Assembly (NCBI RefSeq): GCF_030160075.1
Contig: NZ_BSNQ01000009.1
Coordinates: 802,295-866,294, forward strand
Length of the DNA stretch: 64,000 nucleotides
Direction: 5' to 3'
Source: Dyella lipolytica
GTDB lineage: Bacteria; Pseudomonadota; Gammaproteobacteria; Xanthomonadales; Rhodanobacteraceae
In this document: in pieces, positions 53,524 through 58,173 of the stretch
Layout of the letters: every line of letters starts with the position of its first letter
Position numbering within the stretch: the stretch's first letter is position 1
Program-made: the position numbers and the translations under genes
The notes under the pieces: model-generated
Databases searched by the model: none
What the model saw: the letters and a program-made list of their open reading frames with translations, nothing else
What the model was told of the DNA's origin: nothing

Positions 53524-55119
<1,596 letters not shown>

Positions 55120-55154
55120 TCGCGCGCATCCAGAGCATTCACGGAGTACACGAC

Positions 55155-56450
55155 ATGAAAAACACCCTGCCTACTGCCGAACAGATTTCGCTGGACTGGA
55201 AGAACAACACCCGCTGGGCTGGTATCGAGCGCAATTACAGCGCTGAGGACGTGGTGCGTTTGCGCGGCACAGTGGGCGTGGAACACTCGCTCGCCCGCCG
55301 CGGCGCGGAGCGCTTGTGGAAATCGCTGCACAAAGAAGATTTCGTCAACGCACTTGGCGCACTTACCGGTAACCAGGCCATGCAGCAGGTGAAAGCCGGC
55401 TTGCAGGCGATCTATCTCAGTGGCTGGCAGGTGGCCGCCGATGCAAACGTGGCGGGTGAGATGTATCCCGATCAGTCGTTGTATCCGGCCAACTCGGTAC
55501 CGCTGGTGGTGAAGCGCATCAACAACACGCTATTGCGCACCGATCAGCTGCATCACGCCGAAGGCAAGGACGACACCGACTGGATGGTGCCAATTGTGGC
55601 CGATGCCGAGGCCGGTTTCGGCGGCGTGCTCAACGCCTTCGAACTGATGAAGGCGATGATCGAGGCGGGCGCGGCTGGCGTGCATTTTGAAGATCAGCTG
55701 GCCTCGGTGAAAAAGTGCGGTCATATGGGCGGCAAGGTGCTGGTGCCGACGCGCGAAGCAGTGGACAAATTGAATGCGGCGCGTCTCGCCGCGGACGTGC
55801 TTGGCGTACCGACCTTGCTGGTGGCGCGCACCGATGCGGATGCAGCCGACCTGCTCACCTCCGATATCGACGATAACGATCGGCCATTCACGACCGGCGA
55901 ACGCACGATGGAAGGTTTCTATCGCGTGCGCGCCGGCCTCGATCAGGCCATCAGCCGTGGCCTTGCGTACGCGCCGTATGCCGATCTGGTCTGGTGCGAG
56001 ACCAGCAAGCCCAATCTGGAAGAAGCACGCAAATTCGCCGAGGCGATTCATGCGAAGTTCCCAGGCAAACTGCTGGCCTACAACTGCTCGCCGAGCTTCA
56101 ACTGGAAGAAGAATCTGGACGACGCCACCATCGCGAAGTTCCAGCAGGAACTCGGTGCGATGGGCTACAAGTTCCAGTTCATTACGCTGGCGGGGTTCCA
56201 CAGCCTCAACTACGGCATGTTCGATCTGGCACATGGTTATGCGCGGCGCCAGATGAGTGCGTTCGTCGAGCTGCAGGAAAAAGAATTCGCGGCAGCCGAG
56301 CGTGGCTTCACTGCAGTGAAGCATCAGCGCGAAGTGGGCACGGGTTACTTTGATGCAGTGACGCAAGCCATTCAGCAGGGCCAATCCTCGACCACGGCGT
56401 TGAAGGGCTCGACCGAAGAAGCTCAGTTTCACCGTGCTTCGGCCGCCTGA
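55155..56450 (+). CDS. aceA: Isocitrate lyase
   Basis: Cleaves isocitrate to glyoxylate and succinate, the first step of the glyoxylate shunt. The 431-residue protein has the signature KKCGHMGGK with catalytic Cys, [17 protein letters not shown], and [15 protein letters not shown]. It lies 35 bases after aceB with a GGAG site before the ATG at 55155. The shunt lets the cell grow on acetate or fatty acids, linking it functionally to the acyl-CoA operon at 21.5 kb. Confidence 0.97.
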
Positions 56451-56468
56451 GTTCGCGCGACTGACCCA

Positions 56469-56496
56469 CGCCTCCCTCTACTTGCAGAGGGAGGCG
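56469..56496. terminator. Hairpin after aceA
   Basis: CGCCTCCCTCT (56469-56479) and AGAGGGAGGCG (56486-56496) form a perfect 11-base stem with a six-base loop, 18 bases after the aceA stop. There is no strong T tract. Confidence 0.65.
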
Positions 56497-56515
56497 TTAC
56501 GTTGATGCGCAACTT

Positions 56516-56659
56516 AGAGCCGCTAACAAAACGTAGCGAGCGGCCGCGGGGTGGGTGCGGGCGGCGCGCAGGAACCGGAGTGTACTGGGTCGTACATGAG
56601 GATTCCGAGCACCGACCGCGCCCACCCCGCGGCCGCGCAGTAGTTTTGTTAGCGGCTCT
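56516..56659. repeat. ~144-bp near-perfect palindromic element abutting the comM stop codon
   Basis: The outer arms AGAGCCGCTAACAAAAC (56516-56532) and its exact reverse complement (56643-56659) flank inner arms that also match with few differences, including CGGCCGCGGGGTGGG. The folding ends in TGTAC-TGGGTC-GTACA (56580-56595). The whole element could fold into one long hairpin. It has no coding potential. It ends at the comM stop codon TAA. It may be a MITE-like or large REP-type repeat. Confidence 0.7.
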
Positions 56660-58173
56660 TAGTCGGACAAGAGGGACAGGCGTCGGTATTGCAGGGCTTC
56701 GGCCAGATGGGTGCGATCGAGTGCTGCGGCACCGTTGTCTATATCGGCAATCGTGCGCGCGACGCGCAAGGTTCGATGGTAAGCGCGTGCGGATAACCCC
56801 AGTCGCTCCAGCGCGCCATCGAACCAGCGCCGTTCGGCAGAACCGAGAGCGCAATCGCGTTCCAGTTCGCGAGTACTGATCTCGGCGTTCGGCCGGCCGG
56901 CACGCGCAAGCGCATGCTGGCGTGCGCGAATCACCCGCGCGCGAACCGTGGCAGAGTCTTCGTCCTGCGAGGTGCGTGGCGCGCCCAGTTCGGTCAACGG
57001 CAGACCCGGCACTTCGACGCATAGATCGATGCGGTCGAGCATCGGACCGGAAATGCGCGAGCGGTAGCGCTGCACCTGATCTGGCGTGCAGCGGCAACGC
57101 GGGCGCGCGTCGCCGGCATAACCGCAAGGACAGGGATTCATGGCCGCCACTAGTTGAAACTGAGCGGGGAAGCTCAACTGACGCGCTGCACGCGAAATAA
57201 GAATGGTGCCGGACTCCATCGGCTCGCGCAGCACTTCCAACACATGCCGGCTGAACTCCGGAAATTCGTCCAGAAACAGCACGCCGTTATGGGCCAGCGA
57301 AATCTCACCGGGCCTAGGTTGCGACCCACCGCCCACCAAGGCAACGGCCGACGCAGTGTGGTGGGGCGCGCGAAAGGTGCGGCGACGCCAGTGCGCGGGA
57401 TCGACGGTTAGGCCGGCCACCGACATCACGGCGCAGGTTTCCAGCGCCTCCGATTCGGTCATCGGCGGCAGGATGCCCGGCAGGCGTTCGGCCAGCATGG
57501 TTTTGCCGGTGCCGGGCGGCCCCATCAGCAGCAAGTGGTGGCCGCCGACTGCCGCAATCTCCAGCGCTCGGCGCGCTTGCAGCTGACCGCGTACATCGAT
57601 GAGATCCGGACCCGCATCGTCGTTGCTCAGCACGAGCGACGATGTCGGCGGCATCAACTCCTGCGCACCGCGTAGCCAGCTGCAGACATCGGTGAGCGTA
57701 TCGGCCACGCGCACATCGACTTCGGAAATCAGCGCCGCTTCCTCAGCGTTGGCGCGCGGCACCACCACGCGACGTCCGCGCGCCCGTGCGCGAAGCAGCG
57801 CGGGCAATACGCCAGATACCGGCCGCAGCTGGCCGGAAAGCGCCAGTTCGCCCAGGAATTCGCAATCGTCGAGCTTTTCACGCGGAACCTGATGTCCCGC
57901 GGCCAGAATGCCCAGTGCGATAGCCAGATCGAAGCGGCCGCCGTCCTTGGGCAACTCGGCCGGCGCCAGATTCACGGTAACTTTGCGGTTGGGGTATTCG
58001 AAGGCGGCGTTTTGGATGGCCACACGTACACGGTCGCGTGCCTCGCGCACGGCCGCTTCGGGTAAACCGACAATATTGGTGCTAGGCAGACCACCAGAGA
58101 GATGCACTTCCACCATCACCTGCGGTGCGGAGACCCCCTCCTGGGCACGGCTTAGCGTGACGGCCAGGCTCAT
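56659..58173 (-). CDS. comM: YifB/ComM family Mg-chelatase-like AAA+ ATPase
   Basis: The 504-residue protein has an N-terminal Lon-protease-like domain (SLAVTLSRAQEGVSAPQVMVEVHLSGGLPSTNIVGLPEAAVREARDRVR), an AAA+ Mg-chelatase domain with LLMGPPGTGKTMLAERLPGI, LFLDEFPEF and AAMNPCPCGY, and a C-terminal region ending YRRLSLLSD. ComM is a hexameric helicase that extends branch migration during natural transformation. It is single-copy and convergent with aceA; its stop forms part of the palindromic element. Confidence 0.94.
   Translation of the reverse strand: MSLAVTLSRAQEGVSAPQVMVEVHLSGGLPSTNIVGLPEAAVREARDRVRVAIQNAAFEYPNRKVTVNLAPAELPKDGGRFDLAIALGILAAGHQVPREKLDDCEFLGELALSGQLRPVSGVLPALLRARARGRRVVVPRANAEEAALISEVDVRVADTLTDVCSWLRGAQELMPPTSSLVLSNDDAGPDLIDVRGQLQARRALEIAAVGGHHLLLMGPPGTGKTMLAERLPGILPPMTESEALETCAVMSVAGLTVDPAHWRRRTFRAPHHTASAVALVGGGSQPRPGEISLAHNGVLFLDEFPEFSRHVLEVLREPMESGTILISRAARQLSFPAQFQLVAAMNPCPCGYAGDARPRCRCTPDQVQRYRSRISGPMLDRIDLCVEVPGLPLTELGAPRTSQDEDSATVRARVIRARQHALARAGRPNAEISTRELERDCALGSAERRWFDGALERLGLSARAYHRTLRVARTIADIDNGAAALDRTHLAEALQYRRLSLLSD

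Follow-up and report, generated by a model that had tools for sequence, protein, structure and literature searches.

By prevalence, sX9 (Rfam RF02228) has been placed in the top 20 of bacterial small RNAs (PMC9029176), and in X. campestris copper has been reported to raise its transcripts (PMC10924375). The parts of the literature on sX9/RF02228 drawn on here, the original description excepted, class it as a small RNA or a non-coding RNA and leave mobility unstated. Elements of the IS5 group follow a TNA target rule, while REPs and REPINs are defined as inverted, GTAG-tagged palindromes without target duplication. A three-base target has been described for the IS1031 group (PMC2516522), and processing by RNase III has been described for the transcripts of Neisseria elements (PMC2649163). 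The locus considered here lies in a 64-kb stretch of the Dyella lipolytica genome (hereafter the window, all positions being counted within it), where a long palindrome ends at the stop codon of comM. We propose that this palindrome is very probably a non-autonomous MITE moved in trans, at TNA, by an IS5-family (IS427/IS1031-like) transposase.

The palindrome and its site at comM

The whole element, which we take to be an IS5-type MITE with an sX9 core, spans 142 bp (56517–56658; plus orientation is that of the strand carrying GTACATGAGGATTCCGAGC) and is bounded by exact 16-bp terminal inverted repeats, GAGCCGCTAACAAAAC on the left (56517–56532, plus strand) and its exact inverse on the right (56643–56658, minus strand). 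Two conserved boxes, CGTAGCGAGC (56532–56541) and GCGCAGTAG (56635–56643), both on the plus strand, lie in an internal-loop region, and the highly conserved hairpin tip reads GCGCAGGAACCGGAGTGTAC-TGGGTC-GTACATGAGGATTCCGAGC (56566–56610, plus strand), with the letters TGGGTC at 56586–56591. The outer arms (56512–56532 and 56643–56663) are 95% complementary and the inner arms (56529–56576 and 56600–56647) 75% complementary and gapless, while the RNA fold of 56500–56680 reaches −116.3 kcal/mol (z = −10.8); dinucleotide-shuffled versions (n = 200) give −70.8 ± 4.2, and none of them folds equally well. The preliminary description of a giant near-perfect palindrome is thereby borne out, as are its 17-base outer arms, exact reverse complements that read AGAGCCGCTAACAAAAC; the extent of 144 bp that it gave (56515–56661) does hold the palindrome, but the proper limits are those of the 142-bp element, with TTA left outside. 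The element is short, has terminal inverted repeats and is apparently without coding capacity, in the manner of a MITE, the only frames open across it (56429–57127, minus strand; 56502–56879, plus strand) being mechanical ones.

The triplet TTA stands on each side of the element (56514–56516 and 56659–56661), so that the proposed check for a target-site duplication gave a positive answer. The right copy is, on the minus strand, the TAA stop codon of comM (56659–58173, minus strand), a gene for a YifB-family Mg chelatase-like AAA ATPase; YifB also goes by the name ComM. The sharp end remarked upon at this stop codon is thus a real one. Insertion would have taken place at TTA, the complement of the stop codon, and the duplication would have left that codon in place, keeping comM intact and giving the element its sharp edge. 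The convergent neighbour, isocitrate lyase, is held by an open frame at 54747–56450 (plus strand), the match starting at frame residue 140. On the 3′ side of isocitrate lyase, at 56468–56497, there is an inverted repeat with perfect 12-bp arms around a loop of 6 bases (ACGCCTCCCTCT), likely a terminator, and similar repeats are visible in some relatives, for example G008 and G011.

In the host genome (nine contigs, 99.98% complete) we found a second full copy at C3:2033663, 97% identical and likewise flanked by TTA/TTA, a diverged copy with 70% identity, and a 53-bp remnant (L006, 1480–1532) which retains little beyond the two ends, is flanked by TGA/TGA and sits at the stop codon ending a 262-codon open frame. 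The multiple copies and target-site duplications that characterize MITEs are thus present in the form of two full copies with TTA/TTA and a remnant with TGA/TGA. The unit at comM recurs in the host genome and in other genera, whereas uniqueness to this locus had been named at the outset as the result that would speak against a mobile element. Among the genus genomes searched comM is present in 16 of 16, and the element is absent from the comM locus in all 15 same-genus relatives, scanned about 1.5 kb to each side as far as the contig reaches; the nearest stretches there have at least 4/16 mismatches to the end repeat and at least 6/19 to the core. In one of these relatives (G008) the end of comM directly joins a hairpin-bearing spacer resembling that found beyond the 142-bp element, and the joined host flanks align across the junction, which constitutes an empty site. 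Given this absence and the alignable empty site, the element was most likely gained at comM in the present lineage.

Sixteen of 36 elements (four of them full insertion sequences) lie where an open frame of at least 80 codons stops; of the 4214 TNA sites that these loci contain, 716 do. Two pairs among the 36, L116/L125 and L131/L134, appear to represent one site each in related records. A preference for stop codons is suggestive only, since insertions that disrupt genes do not survive and spurious frames enter the control.

IS5-type ends and the putative mobiliser

An IS5-family transposase would recognize the GAGCCGCTAACAAAAC ends, insert at TNA and duplicate 3 bp. Among 17 GAG-ended elements with an sX9 core (three spurious pairings of 139, 203 and 940 bp having been dropped), the 3-bp flanks are identical in nine, differ by one mismatch in five and are unmatched in three, so that the GAG-type ends and 3-bp TNA duplication expected of an IS5-family derivative are found, with exact duplication in 9/17. 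In two Xanthomonas-like elements beyond these 17, L181 and L197, the 3-bp flanks differ at one base each.

A search of 233 genomes of the family for the exact end repeat, GAGYCGCTAACAAAAC, found it in 11. In Dyella sedimenti (G111) the scaffolds stop 62 bases inside copies of an insertion sequence bearing these ends, as expected of a multi-copy element that the assembly failed to resolve; two Xanthomonas citri plasmids carry a complete IS5-family element that matches both of its ends at 87–89%, and plasmid-borne IS5-family elements from X. translucens and Cupriavidus taiwanensis match one end at 80–81%. These full plasmid elements (L131–L134) measure 864–866 bp and come from four plasmids and three independent sites. 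Compared with those of the window element, their ends show 0–3 differences in 16 bases; within each element the two ends are alike at 13–15 of 16, and all four are flanked by TTA/TTA, the two X. citri copies sharing their flanks. The two reading frames of L131 correspond to DUF4096 and DDE_Tnp_1 (NCBIfam IS5 family); two frames within some 860 bp are in keeping with the IS427 group (PMC3196728), and a three-base target with the IS1031 group (PMC2516522). A MITE whose ends match those of an autonomous element is therefore found here with the plasmid IS5-family elements as its counterpart, and since these complete elements combine near-identical ends with TTA duplications, the likely kind of mobiliser is an IS5-family element. 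The suggested search for a transposase with the same terminal repeats accordingly succeeded on plasmids, while the host genome yielded none.

No PF01609 match was detected in the host genome, so that a resident mobiliser is unseen and present mobility of the element doubtful. Across the 12 genomes searched with this profile, G011 has one match, Dyella sedimenti two, G114 two and the others none. The match that was read, L107 from Dyella sedimenti, was rejected as the insertion sequence sought; it is a second IS5-type element with ends GAGCCTGTTCAAAATC that directly abuts the first one, at the contig end. Elsewhere, in L067, a CGTCATTCCGG palindrome lies between one GAGCCGCTAACAAAAC end and a right end of another kind (GATTTTGAACAGGCTC), the whole flanked by TAA/TAA, possibly a mixed-end element.

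Insertion in trans at TNA by an IS5-type enzyme would explain at once why the element is sharply bounded by terminal repeats and a duplication and why the stop codon is preserved. What can be read directly at the level of sequence is the ends, the duplications, the absence in relatives with an empty site, and full insertion sequences with near-identical ends; movement in trans we infer from these, and any effect on comM or isocitrate lyase transcripts would be a side effect. The mobile palindromic element (MITE) of the preliminary description is well supported by the second copy with TTA/TTA, the absence in 15 of 15 relatives, the empty site and the full IS5-family relatives.

The sX9 core and its changing ends

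The Rfam RF02228 (sX9) match runs on the minus strand from the hairpin tip into the terminal repeat (56521–56597) and scores 70 bits against a gathering score of 44 bits. Nothing else in the window reaches an Rfam gathering score; of other RNA families, only microRNA hairpins matched, far under their cut-offs, and these were rejected as chance. Since the alignment spans the hairpin tip into the terminal repeat, the Rfam model covers one arm of a putatively mobile palindrome. RF02228 matches are present in 16 of 97 genomes of the family and 21 of 151 of the order, with up to 28 copies per genome.

The inside is the sX9 hairpin, its tip and two boxes conserved and its stems rewritten with compensation, and it would travel with other IS5-type ends too. 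In other genera both boxes and the tip are kept and the outer arms differ (GAAGTGGTCTCAAAAAC, AACCTGTTCTCAAAAC, GGAACCTCTAGAAACC, AATGAAGCTYTGCAAAAC and more). Of 34 loci fetched from one genome, G023, the 22 with both boxes were used, the remaining 12 having a box missing or interrupted (L207, one of these, shows no core). The left arms of the 22 copies form 10 clusters (about ten, one being a row out of register; two of the 22 rows are out of register by one base, 5/15). Left and right arms of the same copy agree at 12.9 of 15 positions on average, compared with 7.2 of 15 between copies; agreement reaches at least 12/15 in 20 of the 22 copies, and none of 5000 permutations gave a value as high.

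One arm class, AACCTATCTCAAAA, comprises five G023 elements and two from other genomes (eight rows were found, of which L025 was assigned to another arm class, giving n = 7). Its adjoining four bases are CTAG on at least one side in six of the seven, and the four bases of the two flanks agree fully in one element, at three positions in five and at two in one; the background is 13 occurrences of CTAG in 23,732 positions of the G023 loci, AACCTATCTCAAAA sites included. The presence of CTAG at these elements suggests that a second type of transposase, with a target of 4 bp, is involved. No full insertion sequence with the other arm classes was found by PF13340 in 10 genomes (matches in two; none in eight, G023 included) or in the insertion sequence of G031. 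The latter, a resident IS5, was rejected as mobiliser on comparison of its left end, which begins AGAGCCTGTTCAAAGTC, unlike the sX9 elements of that genome.

The agreement of the G023 arms could also have arisen by template switching, one arm being copied onto the other; this explanation concerns the ends only and dispenses with different transposases. It would account for the closer match of a copy to itself than to others, several arm types do occur once, and G023 is without a PF13340 match; several arms, however, recur as clusters, and CTAG stands at the expected place in 6/7 of the AACCTATCTCAAAA class compared with the background above. We regard template switching as a quite credible account that nevertheless falls short of being the probable one, and propagation of the hairpin by several IS5-type transposases as the best reading.

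In many sX9-type copies of G023 a further repeat (GACTCGCCGC.. or TACATGCCGC..) breaks in directly behind GAGGAT or close to it, as in L204, L208, L210, L212, L214–L216, L218, L221, L225 and L228, as if a second small element targeted the hairpin tip.

The same ends also enclose other interiors, in elements of 53–114 bp at other loci. L130, L110, L116, L125 and L118, in viral contigs, have other interiors within the same IS5 ends, one such element measuring 90 bp. The core of L110, L116 and L130 takes the form CAAGGC..GCAG.CAGTAC..GTAC..AACGC, with the ends of the window element, and relatives of the L130 type lie on replicons of Cupriavidus metallidurans CH34 (nine places) and Eleftheria at 77–80% identity. 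Phage records gave no match to the 142-bp element or to the L130 element.

The hairpin strand and comparison with known systems

Alignment A1 holds 26 of 34 mapped divergent elements, chosen by judgement without a fixed rule (L182, L168, L164, L185, L015, L189, L017 and L028 were left out). Both sides have changed in 37 of its 53 consensus pairs, and in 14 of 19 in the inner stem (helix 4); its cells are paired in 96.6%, as against 77.4% in shuffles (0 of 500 as high) and 33–42% when slid. Part of these double changes is expected from the nature of terminal repeats. Multiple copies, a shared core and covariation are, like the ends and duplications, legible in the alignments themselves.

For 25 of the 26 elements of A1 the plus strand has the better predicted fold of the two strands (median 11.5 kcal/mol), and again for 23/25 and 18/22 of two further, partly overlapping sets. 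Read on the strand opposite sX9, the imperfect pair states of A1 that occur in at least two sequences are 13 G-T and no A-C, compared with 11 and 12 among states seen in one sequence; at pairs predicted on both strands the inherited states are 7:0 (p 0.016) and the singletons 11:8 (Fisher p 0.06 between them). A set of 25 GAG-type elements, collected with up to five mismatches per end and including four (L033, L209, L226, L241) that bear other ends, has inherited G-T to A-C states of 16:3, 7:1 at both-strand pairs and singletons of 13:13. The corresponding ratios for G023 are 11:5, 2:0 and 15:11, with 41 G-T and 27 A-C over all imperfect cells. The both-strand values (7:0, 7:1, 2:0) are the fairer ones because the pair set was partly picked by the plus-strand fold, and all come from few columns, related sequences and a consensus folded from the same data, with a weaker bias in G023. 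Propagating lineages appear to keep the single-strand fold of the plus strand, and the pattern reads as selection on that single strand during propagation followed by neutral decay after insertion. The strand that keeps its fold is opposite to sX9 and would, at comM, be read in the direction coming from isocitrate lyase; candidate functions of the hairpin are RNase III processing of transcripts or a role as single-stranded DNA.

A bolder proposal would make the sX9 hairpin an exchangeable module on several IS5-type transposases (with TNA and CTAG targets) whose success depends on a one-strand fold, as RNA or as replicating DNA on the strand opposite that of Rfam, a core with interchangeable ends that may be of the same kind as the Correia core. 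Inherited A-C pairs occur in two of the three sets, which speaks somewhat against this proposal, and we think it rather unlikely as a whole.

The same data bear on whether sX9 is instead a true regulatory sRNA gene kept by the host, the palindrome being merely its structure. Rfam lists sX9 as an sRNA, and its transcripts rise under copper in X. campestris (PMC10924375). Against this, sX9 is without synteny, being absent at comM in 15 of 15 relatives with its copies scattered; terminal repeats and target duplications are present; and changes confined to one copy are without clear strand bias (13:13, 15:11), as if single copies decayed unselected by the host, all of which leaves a host sRNA gene highly improbable. 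A bidirectional terminator or mRNA 3′-end stabilizer selected at the comM site we likewise judge very unlikely: the fold between the convergent isocitrate lyase and comM is indeed very stable, but no T-run follows either end of the palindrome, isocitrate lyase has its own inverted repeat at 56468–56497, and relatives lack the element at comM. The earlier suggestion of a structured RNA ending two transcripts keeps its first half, the core being Rfam sX9, while the ending of transcripts is not supported. A REP or REPIN moved by a REP-associated tyrosine transposase, the ‘large REP’ once considered, is almost certainly the wrong description, for although GTAG, the tag of one REP superfamily (PMC3733652), occurs inside the left and right boxes, it runs in the same direction in both rather than inverted, and the ends are IS5-type with copies carrying 3-bp duplications.

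The element, very probably an IS5-type MITE, adds a new member to that group; what sets it apart is that its inside is conserved while the ends can be exchanged, and that this inside is what Rfam lists as sX9. Compared with the IS5 family (IS427/IS1031-like), its terminal repeats match at 13–16 of 16 bases and the full elements likewise duplicate TTA; known full elements, however, have DUF4096 and DDE, whereas the window element has 142 bp and no transposase, and its inside is not derived from the IS ends examined. Like Rfam sX9, the window element matches the full model at 70 bits, but Rfam describes one half on one strand, while here that half is part of a presumably mobile palindrome whose opposite strand folds better. 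If sX9 is half of a mobile palindrome, counts of sX9 reflect transposition rather than regulation. The usual picture of a MITE is also inverted where the middle is conserved and the ends are replaced, and with a G-T bias seen in inherited changes but not in private ones, the old question of what such hairpins are for becomes testable.

The cores of L110 and L130 are reminiscent of Correia elements. Set against L110, the sX9-type core of L017 was equalled by none of 2000 shuffles, and against L130, more weakly, by 26 of 2000, while the window core gave 212/2000 and 260/2000, which is not significant. The Correia/NEMIS elements of Neisseria are likewise reported as MITEs with terminal repeats, a conserved core and a hairpin RNA (PMC2649163, PMC2229807). 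ERIC, YPAL and other palindromic MITEs of about 100–170 bp resemble the element, by description only, in size and in their long hairpins (PMC2229807).
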